Assembly: GCA_947446685.1 (NCBI GenBank) | Contig: CANFIC010000005.1 | Coordinates: forward strand, 1 to 37,298 | Direction of reading: 5' to 3' | Source of the DNA: Burkholderiales bacterium | Lineage (GTDB): Bacteria; Pseudomonadota; Gammaproteobacteria; Burkholderiales; Burkholderiaceae_C | Length of the DNA stretch: 37,298 nucleotides | Translations under genes and position numbers: made by a program | Notes under the pieces: generated by a model | What the model was told of the DNA's origin: nothing | Databases searched by the model: none | The model's input: the letters and a program-made list of their open reading frames with translations, nothing else | Part shown: one piece after another, positions 1 through 19,926 of the stretch | Position numbering within the stretch: the first letter of the stretch is position 1 | How the letters are laid out: each line of letters opens with the position of its first letter

Positions 1-1017
1 CTCCTGCGTTTCAAGCGATACACCGATGACCTGACTGTCCTTGCCAAAATGAAGGACCAGCCGACCGTCCTGGTCGTCGCACCCTTGTCTGGCCACCACA
101 GCACCCTGCTGCGCGACACGGTTCGCCAGTTGTTGAAGGATCACAAAGTCTTCATCACCGACTGGACCGACGCCCGCATGGTGCCGCTTGCGGCCGGGGC
201 TTTCAGCCTCGACGATTACATCGCCTATGTGCAGGAATTCATCCGCCTGCTGGGCCCTGAATGCCATGTAATTTCAGTTTGCCAGCCGACCGTCCCGGTG
301 CTGGCGGCCATATCACTGATGGCCAGCAATGGTGAACAGACGCCGCGCAGCATGACGATGATGGGCGGGCCGATCGACGCGCGCCTGACGCCGACATCGG
401 TGAACAATCTGGCCACGACCAAACCTTACAGCTGGTTCGAGAACAACGTGATCTACCGTGTGCCGACCAACTTCGCTGGCGCGGGTCGGGCGGTCTACCC
501 GGGTTTCTTGCAGCACACCGGTTTTGTGGCCATGAACCCGGATCGCCACGCGACCTCGCATTACGACTATTTTCTCGACCTGATGCGCGGCGATGACGAT
601 GGTGCTGAAGCCCATCGCCAGTTTTATGACGAGTACAACGCCGTGCTCGACATGCCGGCCGAGTATTACCTCGACACGATCAAGACCGTCTTCCAGGATT
701 TCTCCCTGGTCAATGGCACTTGGGAGGTGCAGGGCCAATTGGTGCGGCCGCAGGACATCAGGGGTACGGCGCTGCTGACTGTGGAAGGCGAGCTCGATGA
801 CATTTCTGGCGCCGGCCAGACTCGCGCAGCCCATGGCTTATGTTCGGGCATCGAGGCTGAGCATCGCTACCATTACGACGCCATCGGTGCCGGCCATTAC
901 GGCATCTTTGCCGGCCGCCGTTGGCGCGACCATGTTTACCCCGAAGTGCAAGGCTTCATCGCCAAGTACGACCGGCCGAGCGTTGTGGCACCAGCCCCCG
1001 CCAAGAAACGCGCTTGA
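1..1017 (+). CDS. phaZ: Intracellular polyhydroxyalkanoate depolymerase (PhaZ), 5' end truncated by window edge
   Basis: Frame is open from base 1 ([41 protein letters not shown]...); [13 protein letters not shown]-like and [13 protein letters not shown] lipase-like box typical of intracellular PHB depolymerases. Confidence 0.88.
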
Positions 1018-1691
1018 CCCAGCAATTGCCAGCGCTGGAGCTTGCTGCGCAGGTCTTGCGCATCGAAGCGGCGCTGCCGCAAACGCAGTGCACACGCTGC
1101 GGCTATCCTGATTGCCGTGCCTATGCCGAAGCAGTGGCGATCGGGGTGGCAGGCATCAACCAATGCCCGCCCGGCGGTGCCCAAGGCATCGCCAGGTTGG
1201 CCGCCATCACCGGCCGACCCGCCCTGCCCCTGGACCCCGTGCATGGCATAGAAGGCCCGCGACTGCTGGCGGTGATCGACGAAGCCTGGTGCATAGGCTG
1301 CACGCTTTGCATCGCGGCCTGCCCGGTCGACTGCATCGTCGGCGCGCCCAAGCTGATGCATCTGGTCGTCGCCGAGCAATGTACCGGCTGCGAGCTCTGC
1401 CTGCCGGCCTGTCCGGTCGACTGCATTTCACTGGTCAATGTCAGCGGCAATGCCAGTGGTTGGTCAGCCTGGAGTGAGCGCGATGCCGCCGTAGCGGTTG
1501 ACCGCTATCAATTCCATCAGCAACGCCTACTACGCGACAAGCAGGACAACGATGCCCGCTTGCTCGCACTGGCGCAGGCCAAACTGGGTAATCTGGCCGC
1601 AGCCTCGAAAATCACCGAGCCCGCTGAGCTGGATCGCAAGCGCAGCATGATCGAAGCGGCGATCGCCAGGGCTCGCGCCGCGAAGCAGTAA
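1014..1691 (+). CDS. rsxB: RnfB/RsxB-like ferredoxin electron transport protein; TTG start overlapping the phaZ stop
   Basis: [15 protein letters not shown] plus two 4Fe-4S motifs ([30 protein letters not shown]); TTG at 1014 overlaps TGA of phaZ. Confidence 0.85.
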
Positions 1692-1931: not shown

Positions 1932-2729
1932 TCATGCCGCCGGCCAGTCCGCGCAGCGCCCCGCTTCGACAGCGCATTCCGCAAGCAACTCGCCAGCTTC
2001 GCTGCCGAGCCAGAAAGCCCTCTCCTGCAGGCGCGCCGCCCGAATGCCGTCGGGGCGATCTACTGCATCGCCCGCTCCGGGATGCGCCATCAACAAGCCG
2101 CCGTCAGGCAGCGAACGCAACCAGCCGGCGACCAACTGGGCCATCACAGCACCGGGGTCAAAGTCATAGACACCGGCAAAGTCCGCGTTCATGCGCAACT
2201 GCTGCCGCCCCGCAGCCCGCCGCAGCGCAGCCCCGCCAAGCCCGGCGATCAGCGCTGCTTTGGCTCCGCGCCAATGCTGGCTGCGGGTCGAACGCAAGGC
2301 ACAAGCGCTGCCATAGCGCCGGCTCATCTCACCCAGCACGGCGTCGCGCAACACCGGCAATTGATGCACATGCTGATGTCCGTCTAGATAATCCGGTGCA
2401 CGTTGCATGCCCGCCTCGAAAGCGTCGAGTTGCTCGGCAACCCAGCGATTCGCCTGCGCCTGATCAAGCTGGCCCAAGTAGGCCGCGGCGATCCAGCCTT
2501 GAAGGCTGCGGCCCATTGAGTAATCGGCGAATTCGTTGACATCAAGGTGCAAGCCGATGTCGGCGATCCCGATGCGCTCGCGCAGCGCTGCCGCAGCTGC
2601 CGGCCAGCCAGGCGCCAGCACCATGCAACTGGTCGCGCTGATGCGCCCGGTGTCGATGCACTCGATGATGGCGCGGCTGACCCCAGCATCGAAAGCGTAA
2701 TCATCGGCGCAGATCTGGATGCGTTTCAT
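1932..2729 (-). CDS. ChbG/HpnK (YdjC-like) carbohydrate deacetylase
   Basis: MKRIQICADDYAFDAGVSRAIIECIDTGRISATSCM..., GLHLDVNE, DYLDGHQHVHQLP metal-binding motifs; start overlaps the upstream GtrA stop by 4 bp. Confidence 0.85.
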   Translation of the reverse strand: MKRIQICADDYAFDAGVSRAIIECIDTGRISATSCMVLAPGWPAAAAALRERIGIADIGLHLDVNEFADYSMGRSLQGWIAAAYLGQLDQAQANRWVAEQLDAFEAGMQRAPDYLDGHQHVHQLPVLRDAVLGEMSRRYGSACALRSTRSQHWRGAKAALIAGLGGAALRRAAGRQQLRMNADFAGVYDFDPGAVMAQLVAGWLRSLPDGGLLMAHPGAGDAVDRPDGIRAARLQERAFWLGSEAGELLAECAVEAGRCADWPAA

Positions 2730-3103
2730 GGCCGGCTCGATCGAAAAGCCCAATGACGACTCAGGATCCAGGTCATCGCGGCAACAGCCAGCAGCACCAG
2801 CAGCAGCGCCAAACGATATTCAAGGCCGGCAGCCAGCAGCAAGCCATAGAGCAGCTCGTTGCAGGTAAAGCCGAGCAAGGCGACGATAGCGAACCTGGGC
2901 AAGGCCGCGCCCGTCTTTGCCTGGCTGGAGGCAAAGCTGAAACGGTGATGACCGACGAAGCTGACGCCAAACGCCAGAACAAATCCCGCCACATTGGCCG
3001 CCAGCGCTGCCAGTTGCCATTGCGACACCAGCAACCAGACGACGCAGAAATGCAGCGAGGCTGCGCTGGCGCCGACCAGACCGAAATAGAACAAGGATTT
3101 CAA
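2726..3103 (-). CDS. GtrA-like small membrane protein (putative polyprenyl-P-sugar translocase)
   Basis: 125 aa with four hydrophobic segments, MKSLFYFGLVGASAASLHFCVVWLLV...FVGHHRFSF...SRHWAFRSS typical of the GtrA family. Confidence 0.8.
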   Translation of the reverse strand: MKSLFYFGLVGASAASLHFCVVWLLVSQWQLAALAANVAGFVLAFGVSFVGHHRFSFASSQAKTGAALPRFAIVALLGFTCNELLYGLLLAAGLEYRLALLLVLLAVAAMTWILSRHWAFRSSRP

Positions 3104-4095
3104 TCCATTCCTACAACCGGCGCAGTCAGATCCTGCACCAGATAGAGCGGGCGCTGCTTGACCTCGTCGAAGACCCGGCCGAGGTATTCAGCAATGATGC
3201 CCAAACACAGCAGCTGCACGCCAGCCAGGAAGGTGATCGAAGCCGCCAAAGTCGCAAAGCCCGAGATCGGATTACCCAGAAAGACCTTTTCCGAAACAAT
3301 CCACAAGCCAAAGCCTACCGAGCCTATGGAAACCAGCAGTCCCAGCACCGAAACCAGCCGCAGCGGAACCTTGCTGAATGCAGTCAGACCGGTGAATGCC
3401 AGGGCCAGCAGATGGGCGAATTTGAAATTCGTTTCACCATGGGCTCTCGCGTCAGGCACGAATTCAACGGCCTTGGAACGAAACCCGACCCAGGCAAAAA
3501 GCCCTTTCATATAGCGCGCCCTCTCGGGCAGACTGCGCAGGGCCAGCACCACGCGCCGATCGAGCAGCCTGAAGTCACCGGCATCCGTAGGCAGTTCGAA
3601 GCGCGATCCGCGTTGCATCAGCCAATAGAAAAAACTTGTGTAGCCACGCCTTGCCATCGACTGCGATTGACGCCGCCCGGTCTGCACCGCATAGACCACA
3701 TCAAAGCCTTCGCGCCATGCCGGCAACATGGCCAGCACCGTGTCGATCGGATGCTGGCCATCCGAGTCCATCGTGATCACCACATCGCCTAAGGCAATAT
3801 CGAGCCCGGCACTGAGCGCTGCTTCCTTGCCAAAATTGCGTGACAAGCGCAGCAAGCGCAGCGGCAAGCCCTGCTGAATCAGTCCATGGCAGAGCAAGGC
3901 CGTATCGTCCTGGCTGCCGTCATCGACGACCAGCAATTCGATGCTCTGGCCGCCTGCTGTCAAGCGGCGGGTCAATTCAGGCAGCAAGTCGGCCAGATTA
4001 CGCGCCTCGTTGAAGGCTGGCAGCACCACCGTGATCAGGGCCGGCAGTGGCCGAAGTTGATCTGTGGCGAGAAGACTGTTCGATGACATATTCAT
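3100..4095 (-). CDS. Family 2 glycosyltransferase, polyprenyl-phosphate sugar transferase type (GtrB/ArnC-like)
   Basis: ITVVLPAFNEARNL..ELLVVDDGSQDDT..RNFGKEAALSAGLDIALGDVVITMDSDGQHP plus two C-terminal TM segments. Confidence 0.88.
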   Translation of the reverse strand: MNMSSNSLLATDQLRPLPALITVVLPAFNEARNLADLLPELTRRLTAGGQSIELLVVDDGSQDDTALLCHGLIQQGLPLRLLRLSRNFGKEAALSAGLDIALGDVVITMDSDGQHPIDTVLAMLPAWREGFDVVYAVQTGRRQSQSMARRGYTSFFYWLMQRGSRFELPTDAGDFRLLDRRVVLALRSLPERARYMKGLFAWVGFRSKAVEFVPDARAHGETNFKFAHLLALAFTGLTAFSKVPLRLVSVLGLLVSIGSVGFGLWIVSEKVFLGNPISGFATLAASITFLAGVQLLCLGIIAEYLGRVFDEVKQRPLYLVQDLTAPVVGMD

Positions 4096-5540
4096 TGCCC
4101 CGGTTTGGCGACAACTTCGTCGCGCAGCAAGCATTGTTCACGGTTGCAGGCTAGCGCCGCAGTCGGCAGCGATGATTTATCCAAGCGGGCAACGACTTTG
4201 AAAGCCGGTGCGCCTGGGCTGCCCGGCATGCCGGCATAGAGCCGGCCGCCGGTGTAGAAGTAAGCCGAATAAGCCGGCTTGGCCGGATAGACCAGGCGAC
4301 AGTCCTGGCCGCCACAGGCTTGCTGATAGGCCTCGATCAGCGGCAGGTCTGAATGTCCGGCCCCGACCTGCGGCGCTTTGAAGAAAAACACCCAGCCGTA
4401 AACCAGCAACAAGACCATCGCCAGGCCCCAGGACCTGATCTGCGCCAGGCTGGCGGCAGGCAAGATGCACACGGCCAGGATGGCCAGTCCCGGCAAGGCG
4501 GTCAGCGCATAGGTCCAGATGATATTTCTCGCTGCAGTGAACAGCAGCAAGGGTGCCAGGGTGATGCAAAGCGCATAGCAGGCCAGCTCACTGCCGCCCA
4601 CCTCGCGGTACTGGGCGCTCAGCGTTCCTGCGCCCTGTTTGAAGCGCAACCAGGGGGCACGCAGCAGCAGCAACAGCACCGCTGGCAATCCCGCCAGCAT
4701 GGTGTAAGGCCAGATGATGCCGAACGGTTGGGCATGGGCAAAGCCGTAGCGGTCGCCTTGCCAACCCGGTTGCAAGAAGCGCATCACATGCTCGCCGAGC
4801 ACGAAATAGCTGATGAAACCCGGCGTCTTCAATTCGGCCGCCCAATACCAGGGCACCGCCACAGCCAGGCAGATCAGCCAGACCCAGCGGTCGCGCAGCA
4901 GGATCAGTACGACCGGCCAATGGTGGCGCCAACCGGCATGCAGCAGGATCGGCAGCAGGGCCAGCACCGCGGCCGCCGGCCCTTTGGTCAGCAGCGCCAG
5001 CCCCATGCCGAAGGCCAGCCAGCGGGAAAATCGCCGGCGTTCGGCATCTGCCGAGTGCAGGATCCGCCACCATGAAGCCTGCACCAGCATCACGCAGGCG
5101 ATCAAGGTTGCGTCAGTCATCACCGCGCCAGCACTGATGAAAAACAGCGGACTCAAGGCCAGGACTGAAAGCACCGCCCAGATCTGCAGTCGCGGCAGCG
5201 TGCCGGCCAGCATCCAGGCAAGCGCGGCCAAGGCTGCCGTGCTCCAGCCAACTGCCGGCAGGCGCGCAGCCCATTCGCTGACGCCGAAAATCTGCATCGA
5301 CAGCGCCTGACTCCAGGTCGACAAGGGCGGCTTGGCCCAGAACAACTCGGTCGGCGTGATATGCGGGCTGATCCAGTCGCCCAGCTGCAGCATCAGGCGG
5401 GCGATCTCGGCATAGCGCGCCTCGGTATGGTCGGTCAGCGGCGTTGCTGCCAGGCTCACCAGGCGCAGCAGCAAGGCCAGCGCCAGCACATAGATCCAGG
5501 GCCTGACGGCAGACTTGGCCGGTTGGTTCGATTCGTTCAT
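4092..5540 (-). CDS. Family 39 (ArnT/PMT-like) lipid-linked sugar glycosyltransferase
   Basis: Start MNESNQPAKSAVRPWIYVLALALLLRLVSLAATPLTDHTEARYAEIARLM; multi-TM; E-x-R-Y-A-E and WAKPPLSTW motifs characteristic of the ArnT family. Confidence 0.85.
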   Translation of the reverse strand: MNESNQPAKSAVRPWIYVLALALLLRLVSLAATPLTDHTEARYAEIARLMLQLGDWISPHITPTELFWAKPPLSTWSQALSMQIFGVSEWAARLPAVGWSTAALAALAWMLAGTLPRLQIWAVLSVLALSPLFFISAGAVMTDATLIACVMLVQASWWRILHSADAERRRFSRWLAFGMGLALLTKGPAAAVLALLPILLHAGWRHHWPVVLILLRDRWVWLICLAVAVPWYWAAELKTPGFISYFVLGEHVMRFLQPGWQGDRYGFAHAQPFGIIWPYTMLAGLPAVLLLLLRAPWLRFKQGAGTLSAQYREVGGSELACYALCITLAPLLLFTAARNIIWTYALTALPGLAILAVCILPAASLAQIRSWGLAMVLLLVYGWVFFFKAPQVGAGHSDLPLIEAYQQACGGQDCRLVYPAKPAYSAYFYTGGRLYAGMPGSPGAPAFKVVARLDKSSLPTAALACNREQCLLRDEVVAKPGQ

Positions 5541-5600: not shown

Positions 5601-6263
5601 ATGAACAAGCAACAAATTCTTGGCTTCTTTCAAACTCTGCGCGCTGCCAACCCGGCGCCACAGACCGAGCTTGAATATGCCAGCGTGTTCGAATTGCTGG
5701 TCGCGGTGTTGCTGTCGGCGCAGGCCACCGACGTCAGCGTCAACAAGGCGACGCGGCGCTTGTTCTTGCTGGCCCATACGCCGCAGCAGCTGCTGGCCCT
5801 CGGCGAAGAGGGTCTGATAGAGCAGATCCGCACCATCGGCCTGTTCCGCAGCAAGGCGCGGCATTTGATTGCCACCTGCGGAATGCTGATCGAGCGGCAT
5901 GGCGGGCAGGTGCCCCGTAATCGCGAAGCACTCGAGGCCTTGCCCGGCGTAGGGCGCAAGACTGCCAATGTGGTGCTCAACTGCGCTTTCGGCGAGGCGA
6001 CTATGGCCGTCGACACCCATCTCTTCCGGGTCGGCAACCGCACTGGACTGGCGACAGGCAAGACGCCCTTGGCGGTCGAGAAAGCCTTGCTCAAACGCAT
6101 TCCGGCGGAGTTTCTGGTCGACGCCCATCACTGGCTGATCCTGCATGGACGTTATGTCTGCAAGGCGCGGCAACCCCTTTGCGCCCAGTGCAAAGTGGCC
6201 GAATTCTGCGATCACGGTCGCCGCCTACAATTGCCGATTGCCAAAAGAGCCCGCCATGCCTAG
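5601..6263 (+). CDS. nth: Endonuclease III
   Basis: HhH-GPD: LPGVGRKTANVVLNCAFGEATMAVDTHLFRVGNR; C-terminal 4Fe-4S CKARQPLCAQCKVAEFC. Confidence 0.95.
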   Translation: MNKQQILGFFQTLRAANPAPQTELEYASVFELLVAVLLSAQATDVSVNKATRRLFLLAHTPQQLLALGEEGLIEQIRTIGLFRSKARHLIATCGMLIERHGGQVPRNREALEALPGVGRKTANVVLNCAFGEATMAVDTHLFRVGNRTGLATGKTPLAVEKALLKRIPAEFLVDAHHWLILHGRYVCKARQPLCAQCKVAEFCDHGRRLQLPIAKRARHA

Positions 6264-10185: not shown

Positions 10186-10656
10186 ATGCAAGGATCCGAG
10201 CAGGGGCAAGCTTCTCAAGCCTCATTGAATGGCCAAGACCTGCGCATCGGCATCGTGCAAGCGCGCTTCAACCATGACATCACCTGCCGCCTGGCCGAAG
10301 CCTGCCAGGCCGAGTTGCTGCGGCTAGGCGTGGCTGAAAAACATATCCGTCTGGTGACCGTGCCCGGCGCATTGGAAGTGGCATTGGCATTGAATGCCTT
10401 GGCCGACAGCGAAGACTATGACGCTCTGGTGGCGCTGGGTTGCATCATCCGCGGCGAAACCTATCACTTCGAGTTGGTCGCCAACGAAAGCGGCGCGGCC
10501 GTCACGCGCCTTTCGCTGGACCATCAGATACCCATCGCCAACGCCATCCTGACGGTTGAAAACGAAGCGCAAGCCTGGGCACGCGCCGAGGACAAAGGTC
10601 GCGACGCAGCCCGTGTGGCGATCGAAATGGCAAATTTAATGGAAGAACTGCAGTGA
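10186..10656 (+). CDS. ribH: 6,7-dimethyl-8-ribityllumazine synthase
   Basis: [15 protein letters not shown]...[14 protein letters not shown]...[21 protein letters not shown]. Confidence 0.95.
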
Positions 10657-11159
10657 TCACCAACGACAGCGTCACCTCTCCCGCAGCCGAGAAGGCACCG
10701 CGAGCGCAACCGAAATCGGCTCGCCGCCGCTCGCGTGAAAGCGCCTTGCAGGGTCTTTATCAATGGCTGATTACAGGTGACGATGTCGCCACCATCGACG
10801 CCCACATACATGAACAAGAAGGGTTCAACAAGGTCGACCGGGCCCATTACGACGCCTTGCTGAGCGGCTGCATCATGGAAGCCGCCGACCTCGACAGCAT
10901 GTTGTCGCGTCATGTCGACCGCAAGACCACCGAGCTGTCGCCGATCGAACATGGTGTGCTGATGATCGGCGCCTACGAGCTGAAGCATTGCGTCGACATT
11001 CCCTACAGAGTGGTGATCAACGAGGCCGTCGAGCTGGCCAAATCATTTGGTGGAACCGACGGACATAAATATGTCAACGGTGTGCTCGACCGCACAGCCG
11101 GCGACCTGCGGCCGCTGGAAGTGGCTGCGCGCAATTCGGCAAAAAAATCAGCGCGATGA
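10653..11159 (+). CDS. nusB: Transcription antitermination factor NusB
   Basis: [15 protein letters not shown]...[16 protein letters not shown]...[29 protein letters not shown]. Confidence 0.95.
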
Positions 11160-12340
11160 AACTGGCCGGGCGGCTCGACCAGATCGAACCCTTCTACGTC
11201 ATGGAATGCGCCAAGGCTGCGGCTGAAATGGCGCGCAGTCCGGTTTGCGACCCGGCCCTTGGTGGCCGGCGCATGCTCTACCTGAACATCGGTGAGCCTG
11301 ACTTTGTCGCACCCCTCGCAGTTCAGCAAGCAGCGCGCGATTGCATCGACGCCGGCCGCACCCAGTATCTGCCCGCCACCGGCTTGCCAGCGCTGCGCCG
11401 GGCAGTCTCGGGCTGGTACCGGCAACGTTTCGAGCTCGACATCGCCGTGGAACGCATCGTCATTACCGCCGGCGCATCGGCGGCGCTGCAACTCGCCTGC
11501 TTGGCCTTGTTCGAGCGCGGCGACGAAGTGCTGATGCCTGACCCCTGCTATCCCTGCAACCGGCATTTTGTCGCTGCCACCGATGCGCTGGCCGTGCTGC
11601 TGCCGGCCGGGCCTGAGCAGCGCTTCCAACCCGGCAGCGCCCAGGTCTGTGCCGCCTGGAATCCGGCCACCCGCGGCGTGCTGCTGGCTTCGCCCAGCAA
11701 CCCGACCGGCACTTCGATCGCGCCACAGGAAATGCAGGCCATCGTCGAAGCGGTACGTGCGCGTGGCGGCGTCACCATCGTTGATGAAATCTACCTCGGT
11801 CTCAGCTATGACGCCCGCTTCGAACGCAGCGCGCTGGAGTTTGGCGACGATGTGATTTCGGTGAACAGTTTTTCCAAATATTTCGGTATGACCGGTTGGC
11901 GCCTCGGTTGGCTGGTGCTGCCGCCGGAACTGGTAGCCCCGGTGGAGAAACTGACCCAGAACCTCTTCATCTGCGCCTCCAGCATCGCCCAATATGCGGC
12001 GCTGGCCTGCTTTGAGCCCGCTTCGATTGCCGAATATGAACGGCGCCGACAGGCCTTTCGCGAGCGTCGTGATTACATCGTGCCGGCCTTGCAGGCATTG
12101 GGATTGAAAGTGCCGGTCATGCCGGACGGGGCTTTTTATGTCTGGATCGACTGCTCGGACTTCTGCTCTGACAGCTGGAAATTCGCCTTCGACCTGATGC
12201 AGAGCAGCCAGTTGGCGCTGACGCCAGGCCGCGATTTCGGCCGCGCAGGCAGCGAACGCTGGCTGCGGCTTTCCTTCGCCAGCAGCATGGCCGATCTGCA
12301 AGAAGCCGTGCGCCGATTGGCGGTTGCGCTGCACCGATGA
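11156..12340 (+). CDS. Class I/II PLP-dependent aminotransferase
   Basis: [53 protein letters not shown]-lysine motif. Confidence 0.9.
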
Positions 12341-12756
12341 TGGCTGCCTTCAACCATCAATTGCGCGTCTACTGGGAGGACACCGATGCCGGGGGCGTCG
12401 TGTTCTATGCCAACTATCTGAAGTTCTTCGAGCGCGCACGCACTGAATGGCTGCGCAGACTGGGCTTCGAACAGCAGTCGATGCGCATGCAGGACGGGGT
12501 GATGTTCATCGTCAGCCACACCGATGTACGCTACCTTAAACCGGCAAGGCTTGACGACTTGCTGCAGATCAGCGTCGAGCCGCGCGACATCGGCCGGGCC
12601 AGCATGAATTTGTTCCAGCAGGCGCGGTGCGGCGAGCGCCTGCTGGCTGAAGGACAGATCCGCATCGGCTGCGTGCAAAGCAGCAGCCAACTCGATTTCA
12701 AACCCAGCCGTATTCCGGCCGCCTTGATGGCAGCCCTACAAGCGAAGCAGCCATGA
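12337..12756 (+). CDS. ybgC: Tol-Pal associated acyl-CoA thioesterase
   Basis: RVYWEDTDAGGVVFYANYLKFFERARTEWLRRLG hotdog-fold motif, directly upstream of tolQ. Confidence 0.93.
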   Translation: MMAAFNHQLRVYWEDTDAGGVVFYANYLKFFERARTEWLRRLGFEQQSMRMQDGVMFIVSHTDVRYLKPARLDDLLQISVEPRDIGRASMNLFQQARCGERLLAEGQIRIGCVQSSSQLDFKPSRIPAALMAALQAKQP

Positions 12757-18690: not shown

Positions 18691-19926
18691 ATGAAGAGGC
18701 AGTTTCGATTGCATGGTCAGCAGCATGGTGCCACTACCCTTCTAGCGGTGATGCTGCTGTTTGGCGTGATGGCGATGATGACGATTTATGCGAACCGGAA
18801 CCTGCTGTTTGAGCTGCGCATTGCCAACAATCATTACCGCGCTGGCGTGGCGATGGAAGCCGCAGATGGCGGCATTGAATGGTCACTGGGCATGCTCAAC
18901 GGTATCCATGTCGATGCGGCATGCCAGGCCAGCGGAGTGACCGGTAGCAGTTTCCGCCAGCGCTACCTGGCGATCGACGCCTCTTCCGGCATGATCAGCC
19001 CGAACCAAGTCGCCGAGACCGTTGCCGGCTGCATTCGCCAGGATGCCTGGGTCTGTAGTTGCCCAGCTACTGGCTGGACAGCGCCGTTCGTCGCGACGGA
19101 GCAGTTGCAACCAGGATTTCGCATCAGCTTTGAGCCAGTCGATCGCGCCGGCGTGATCCGCATCGTGTCACAGGGTTGTTCGAGCAGTTCGGCGACCGAA
19201 TGCGACAACCCATCGAGCGCTGTCGACGCTGCACTGGCCGCCGACAAGGTCTTGCTCAGCGCCGCGCTGGTCAGTGCGTTGAAAATGCCGCCGACCATGC
19301 CTTTGGTTGTCAAAGGTTCCGTCGCTCTGGGTCCTGAGGGCCTGGGCTTGCACAACGGCAGCGGTTTGCTCTTGCTGTCGGGCGGCATGGCCAGCGGGCT
19401 GCTTGAATCCAGATTGGACAGCCTGCCTGGCACGCCGGTCGAACTGGCCTTGATCACCGGCAATACCGAGTTTGCTGCCAAATCAGCAGACGAGATGTTT
19501 GCCATGTATTTCGGCATGGCGCCGGCAAGGTACCGGGATCAACCAGCAATGCGGATTGTCGAATGCCCGGCAGATTGCGGACCCGAGCTGTCTGCGGCCT
19601 ATGCCAAGGGAGTCGAGTTGGCCTGGATTGACAGGCCCATCACAATGACCAGCAGTTTGCTGGGTCAGGCCTCGCACCCGATGCTGATCGTCGTCAATGG
19701 TGACTTGACAATCGACGGGGATTTGCAAATGACAGGCCTGCTCTACGTCAGAGGCAACCTTATCTGGCGCAACGCGCAAACCTCACTGTTGAACGGTGGC
19801 CTGCTGGTCGAAGGCAATCTGCGCCTCGCCGGAACAGTCGACATCCAATATGCCAAACCGGTCATCGAGCTTTTGAACAAACAGGCGGGCAGTTTTGTCA
19901 GGGTGCCTGGAAGCTGGTGGAACTGA
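18691..19926 (+). CDS. PilX-like minor pilin, unusually long (411 aa)
   Basis: HGATTLLAVMLLFGVMAMMTIYANRNLLFELRIANNHYRAGVAMEAADGGIEW; PilX-type position after pilW. Confidence 0.7.
   Translation: MKRQFRLHGQQHGATTLLAVMLLFGVMAMMTIYANRNLLFELRIANNHYRAGVAMEAADGGIEWSLGMLNGIHVDAACQASGVTGSSFRQRYLAIDASSGMISPNQVAETVAGCIRQDAWVCSCPATGWTAPFVATEQLQPGFRISFEPVDRAGVIRIVSQGCSSSSATECDNPSSAVDAALAADKVLLSAALVSALKMPPTMPLVVKGSVALGPEGLGLHNGSGLLLLSGGMASGLLESRLDSLPGTPVELALITGNTEFAAKSADEMFAMYFGMAPARYRDQPAMRIVECPADCGPELSAAYAKGVELAWIDRPITMTSSLLGQASHPMLIVVNGDLTIDGDLQMTGLLYVRGNLIWRNAQTSLLNGGLLVEGNLRLAGTVDIQYAKPVIELLNKQAGSFVRVPGSWWN

Follow-up and report, generated by a model that had tools for sequence, protein, structure and literature searches.

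We analyzed a window of 37,298 nucleotides (positions 1 to 37,298 of contig CANFIC010000005.1, Burkholderiales assembly GCA_947446685.1) from a freshwater bacterium of the Roseateles/Paucibacter type, the draft genome of which (about 4.0 Mb in 479 contigs) is 91% complete. On the minus strand between positions 1932 and 5540, genes for a family 39 glycosyltransferase (GT39), a family 2 glycosyltransferase (GT2), a GtrA-family membrane protein and a YdjC-family deacetylase lie head to tail, each overlapping the next by 4 base pairs (bp) (Table 1). The initial annotation had described a four-gene operon with three consecutive 4-bp overlaps, and this description is borne out by the coordinates, the junctions and the Pfam assignments, all four of which exceed their family cut-offs. 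The overlaps are ordinary in themselves because the same window holds a second run of four, and the E. coli arn genes likewise have 4-bp overlaps; we therefore rejected them as special evidence. On sequence grounds, we think it reasonably probable that the operon makes a positively charged amino sugar and attaches it at the envelope, as a hybrid of an lgm-like donor module and a GtrM-type transferase.

Table 1. The four-gene operon, its junctions and its flanking genes.
Feature	Position	Strand	Details
GT39/PMT-type integral membrane glycosyltransferase, GtrM-like subfamily	4092..5540	-	482 aa, ATG start; Pfam PMT and PMT_2
GT2 polyprenyl-phosphate sugar transferase, LgmA-like	3100..4095	-	331 aa, ATG start; Pfam Glycos_transf_2
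GtrA-family membrane protein, candidate flippase	2726..3103	-	125 aa, inferred TTG start; Pfam GtrA_DPMS_TM, 65.5 bits
YdjC-family deacetylase	1932..2729	-	265 aa, ATG start; Pfam YdjC, 147 bits
GT39/GT2 overlap, ATGA	4092..4095	-	junction reading
GT2/GtrA overlap, TTGA	3100..3103	-	junction reading
GtrA/YdjC overlap, ATGA	2726..2729	-	junction reading
rnfB/rsxB-type gene, flank on YdjC side, outside the system	921..1691	+	NCBIfam PRK06991, 301 bits
nth (endonuclease III), divergent flank on GT39 side, outside the system	5601..6263	+	NCBIfam nth, 265 bits

Close relatives with a species name belong to Paucibacter and Roseateles. The nearest locus, in a Burkholderiales metagenome bin of the Umea set, encodes four proteins 93-97% identical to those of the window, which rules out an artefact of assembly. 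A YdjC gene is present in 12 of 17 congeners. The order GT39-GT2-GtrA-YdjC is kept at all 12 of these loci and at four more (L045-L048, which include Roseateles subflavus, Pelomonas and Mitsuaria), giving 16 loci in all, a recurrence greater than chance would produce. Every one of the 16 has the 4-bp GtrA/YdjC overlap and has GT39 and GT2 coupled at -4, -1 or -14, while GT2 and GtrA are coupled at -4 in all 12 that could be scored. Nine of the 12 congener loci lie between nth and rnfB and three lie elsewhere. In one congener, G014, the absence of YdjC may be an assembly gap, since the contig breaks off within GT39, beside a gene positioned like nth.

The deacetylase, the sole YdjC-family protein of the genome, clusters in a tree with the YdjC proteins of Bordetella-type lgm loci and of Comamonadaceae loci (support 100/100), and true HpnK and E. 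coli ChbG fall outside. It is 39-43% identical to its counterparts in the lgm-type loci of Bordetella ansorpii, B. pseudohinzii and Achromobacter, and its metal-site and catalytic motifs (ADD, GLH and DGHQH) are invariant across the loci compared. It scores 42 bits on the HpnK model against a cut-off of 232.6, and 39 bits on the ChbG model against a cut-off of 227. A search for squalene-hopene cyclase gave no match in the 91%-complete genome, and no chb gene adjoins YdjC at the locus. Both identities, HpnK with its hopanoid substrate and ChbG with its chitooligosaccharides, were rejected on the model scores and the tree, together with the lack of a cyclase match in the first case and of an adjoining chb gene in the second. 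The initial annotation had set this enzyme apart from hopanoid and chitooligosaccharide metabolism, and the scores, its placement with lgm-type YdjC proteins and the hopanoid-gene search all agree with that view.

The donor half of the operon has the same kinship. The GT2 shares 45-52% identity with its counterparts in lgm-type loci (45-49% for B. ansorpii, B. pseudohinzii and Achromobacter), and in a tree it groups with those of the lgm-type loci L032, L064, L073 and L098 (94/94), apart from ArnC. Among solved structures its closest match is Synechocystis GtrB (5ekp, 262 bits); ArnC scores 140 bits. An ArnC identity was considered and rejected, the score being 142 bits against a cut-off of 529 and the two being separate in the tree. 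The GtrA protein is 38-43% identical to GtrA of Bordetella/Achromobacter-type lgm loci. Because GT2 and YdjC group with Bordetella-type lgm partners, and YdjC is neither HpnK nor ChbG, the prediction that the operon makes a donor such as undecaprenyl-phosphate-linked hexosamine is well supported.

The acceptor half does not follow the donor half. The AlphaFold model of the GT39 (predicted local distance difference test, pLDDT, 84.6; predicted template-modeling score, pTM, 0.87) has an ArnT-type fold. Its best match in the PDB is ArnT (5ezm; template-modeling score, TM, 0.70; E 1.9e-14), which outranks the protein mannosyltransferases. The label "ArnT-like" in the initial annotation thus holds for the fold but not for the sequence clade, which is on the GtrM-type side: the GT39 falls among gammaproteobacterial and other pseudomonadotal GT39s (100/99), opposite a clade of LgmB plus ArnT (100/99), in a tree that was flagged for long branches but in which this central split was starred nonetheless. 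On an LgmB profile it scores 99 bits, against about 680-790 for full-length LgmB-type proteins. Its subfamily has the motifs D-x-T/A-E-A/G-R-Y and F-W-G/A-K-P-P where ArnT and LgmB have P/S-D-E-x-R-Y and E/H-K-P-P, and the window protein itself reads D-x-T-E-A-R-Y and F-W-A-K-P-P. Relative to ArnT of Cupriavidus metallidurans, Asp55 is replaced by Thr and Glu84 by Ala, and the subfamily has an invariant Asp two residues upstream of the missing Asp55 position. Asp37 is a candidate to take over from the lost residues. The ArnT residues Arg58, Lys85, Asp158, Lys203, Arg270 and Tyr345 are retained, and these have been assigned to binding of the carrier phosphate and the acceptor phosphate (PMC8306577). 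That the GT39 is an LgmB orthologue was rejected on the tree, the LgmB score and the loss of Asp55 and Glu84, and orthology gives no grounds for naming lipid A as the acceptor. Of the Lgm-type logic proposed in the initial annotation, then, the donor half stands through the lgm kinship of GT2 and YdjC, whereas the acceptor half, in the form proposed, is not supported by the position and residues of the GT39.

Outside the Roseateles clade, we inspected 11 loci carrying kin of this GT39. A GT2 adjoins it in all 11 and a YdjC in none; four of the loci were confirmed to have GtrA, and three to have an OmpR-type two-component system. On plasmids, GtrA, GT2 and GT39 overlap right after a CusA/CzcA pump in Pantoea, lie within a metal-resistance region of P. 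putida, and precede a two-component system in Marinobacter. The GT39s of these plasmid cassettes are 36-40% identical to that of the window and reach 232-268 bits when scored with the window-type profile, compared with 133-160 for the LgmB profile. The GT2s of gammaproteobacterial cassettes form a clade of their own (100/99) that excludes the window GT2. The gtrABM genes in the metal region of P. putida have been proposed, without proof, to repair metal-damaged membrane (PMC3056050), and from the matching gene order, rather than from the gtrM sequence, we infer that this gtrM belongs to the same GT39 subfamily. Among 135 plasmid records with a match to the window GT39, 85 come from Pantoea. 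One of its plasmids, p33.1_3 (L266), is mobilizable and 16.6 kb long, and carries CusA/CzcA efflux genes followed by the overlapping GtrA-GT2-GT39 genes, beside IS26. In Marinobacter pMAD49a (L268:10503-12368), a protein of the lipoteichoic acid (LTA)-synthase family, with a fold common to phosphoethanolamine transferases, lies beside the GtrA-GT2-GT39-two-component cluster. A literature search found no paper on a Vibrio GtrA-GT2-GT39 operon.

Since GT2 and YdjC have lgm-side kinship and GT39 is of the gtrM type, we read the operon as a predicted hybrid, in which a GtrM-type transferase works with an lgm-like module for the amino-sugar donor. At L058, a distant beta locus, GT39 and GT2 of the gtrM type occur with a YdjC. 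In Comamonas, Giesbergeria and Variovorax loci, GT2 and YdjC, in most cases with GtrA, are paired with a different PMT_2 enzyme of a KHPP type. Across Burkholderiales, one donor module is thus seen with three kinds of acceptor transferase: LgmB type, KHPP-type PMT_2 and GtrM type. It is mainly for this reason that lipid A should not be assumed. The PMT_2 enzymes with the KHPP motif at L050, L053, L061, L085 and L099 (Comamonadaceae-type) are not recognized well by either GT39 profile.

In the mechanism we propose, GT2 would move an N-acetylhexosamine (HexNAc), either N-acetylglucosamine or N-acetylgalactosamine, from its uridine diphosphate (UDP) form, UDP-HexNAc, onto undecaprenyl phosphate on the cytoplasmic side of the membrane. 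YdjC would then N-deacetylate the lipid-linked sugar; we place this step on the cytoplasmic side too because the protein begins at its catalytic motif (MKRIQICADDY), with no N-terminal signal sequence visible. GtrA may aid flipping of the undecaprenyl-phosphate-linked hexosamine, presumably toward the periplasmic side, and GT39 would load the hexosamine onto an acceptor in the envelope, most probably lipopolysaccharide (LPS), in its lipid A or core. A positively charged sugar on LPS is therefore the likely product of the scheme.

Several points weigh against this proposal. The sugar is assigned by kinship. In all sampled relatives within the GT39 subfamily, Asp55 is replaced by Thr or Ala and Glu84 by Gly or Ala, so the acceptor may differ. 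The kin of this GT39 that lack a YdjC presumably move a sugar that is not deacetylated, and a separate arn operon may already act on the lipid A phosphates. Among the candidate acceptors, lipid A phosphate has, in our estimate, a probability of roughly between one third and two fifths. Tentatively, and a little short of even confidence, we suggest that the operon is a conserved system of the clade in which the GtrM-type transferase would serve some acceptor different from lipid A phosphate, as one of several instances of a single GT2-GtrA-YdjC module combined with unrelated acceptor transferases.

Should the operon instead be a system of the Lgm/FlmF2-NaxD-FlmK type proper, hexosamine would go onto lipid A phosphates through a diverged ArnT-like enzyme. 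We find this doubtful, even though the donor genes are those of lgm loci, ArnT is the closest solved fold with the six phosphate-site residues kept, and in four congeners (G003, G005, G006 and G017) no ArnT-related hit besides the operon GT39 was found in the genome. The GT39 nonetheless lies outside the LgmB plus ArnT clade and lacks Asp55 and Glu84, its subfamily normally occurs in gtrABM-type cassettes without YdjC, and the genome has its separate arn operon. That operon is complete (arnT, one arnE/F-like gene, arnB, arnC, two arnA halves and arnD) and straddles contigs C7 and C29 (L148:4547-7429 and L201:3-4255), with the break inside arnB, matching the intact operon of G014 at 92-99%. Arn was present in these two genomes and not seen in the other congeners. 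Because it is rare in the genus, and the operon GT39 is the sole ArnT-related hit in those four congeners, redundancy with arn is only a weak argument against lipid A. Several congeners carry another LgmB-like GT39; at L204-L207, in Roseateles-group congeners, such a GT39 stands alone without an adjoining GT2 or YdjC, and perhaps shares the donor made by the four-gene operon. A literature search found no paper on Roseateles/Paucibacter lipid A.

It is somewhat unlikely, in our view, that the acceptor is specifically another part of LPS, that is, an inner core phosphate or sugar or the O-chain, as in Gtr-type O-antigen modification by GtrA, GtrB and an acceptor-specific transferase. A GT39 that is a distinct acceptor-side enzyme would fit, as would the presence of arn in the genome, and GT2-GtrA-YdjC occurring with differing GT-C transferases in Burkholderiales is what a constant donor and a varying acceptor would lead one to expect. 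However, the operon lies outside any LPS gene cluster, between its rnfB and nth flanks, and no published LPS structure was found for the Roseateles/Paucibacter clade. Transfer to something other than LPS, for instance phosphatidylglycerol or a protein of the periplasm, is less probable again. In P. aeruginosa, gpgSDF (a glycosyltransferase, a deacetylase and a flippase) makes glucosaminyl-phosphatidylglycerol (PMC12713373), and GtrM of the P. putida gtrABM set is annotated as protein O-glycosylation (PMC3056050), but gpgSDF belongs to other protein families (GT4, COG3233 and YbhN) without a GT-C transferase, and the best fold match of our GT39 is ArnT rather than a protein mannosyltransferase. 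Finally, although YdjC proteins are commonly auto-annotated as HpnK or ChbG and ours matches both models weakly, it is scarcely credible that a deacetylase of hopanoid or chitooligosaccharide metabolism is located here by accident, when it scores far under both cut-offs, lies outside both in the tree, is accompanied by no squalene-hopene cyclase match and keeps its overlap with GtrA at 16 of 16 loci.

Elsewhere in the window, the second run of consecutive 4-bp overlaps (10653-12756, plus strand; GTGA, ATGA, ATGA and ATGA at 10653, 11156, 12337 and 12753) lies downstream of riboflavin genes and reaches into an aminotransferase gene and a MotA/TolQ/ExbB gene. At 18691-19926 (plus strand) there is a 411-aa open frame without a Pfam match at 1e-5.

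Sensitivity to cationic peptides and to metals changes when the outer envelope bears positively charged sugars. Should operons of this sort share one donor module and exchange the acceptor enzyme, it is unsafe to label each of them as modifying lipid A, which is the label that automatic annotation and the initial annotation would give. If the acceptor is indeed something other than lipid A, the widespread gtrABM cassettes of metal-resistance islands would be envelope-glycosylation systems, where the role of GtrM has so far only been guessed at, as membrane repair (PMC3056050). The operon is also a compact test case for the function of GtrM-type transferases, as the amino sugar is readily recognized by its mass.

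In Francisella, the FlmF2-NaxD-FlmK system makes undecaprenyl-phosphate-linked N-acetylgalactosamine, deacetylates it and transfers the product to lipid A, and the window operon is likened to it by the proposed logic, not by sequence. With ArnT and the arnBCADTEF system it has in common the fold, the six phosphate-binding residues and the logic of a polyprenyl-phosphate sugar donor; however, it lacks arnA, arnB and arnD partners, and its GT2 is not ArnC. The Bordetella lgmA-D locus is similar in bringing together GT2, GT39-type, YdjC and GtrA genes, with YdjC in the same clade. For B. pertussis, a paper citing the original work (PMC4993483) reports that glucosamine modification of lipid A needs LgmA, LgmB and LgmC but can do without LgmD. 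We take the loci of B. ansorpii, B. pseudohinzii, Achromobacter and related genera to be lgm from their gene content and a 529-residue GT39, which matches the length of the B. holmesii ArnT gene, reported as 1590 bp (PMC5454989), and their GtrA gene to be lgmD. Their order is GT2-GT39-GtrA-YdjC with GtrA on the opposite strand, whereas the window has GT39-GT2-GtrA-YdjC in one direction, and their GT39 is in the ArnT-side clade, outside of which ours falls. The gtrABM cassettes, known from the P. putida metal-resistance region, Cupriavidus metallidurans pMOL30 and plasmids of Pantoea, Marinobacter and P. putida, share with the window the GT39 subfamily and the adjacent, overlapping GtrA and GT2 genes. 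In contrast to the window operon, which has a YdjC and sits between rnfB and nth, they have no YdjC, carry a GT2 of another clade and lie beside metal efflux or two-component genes.

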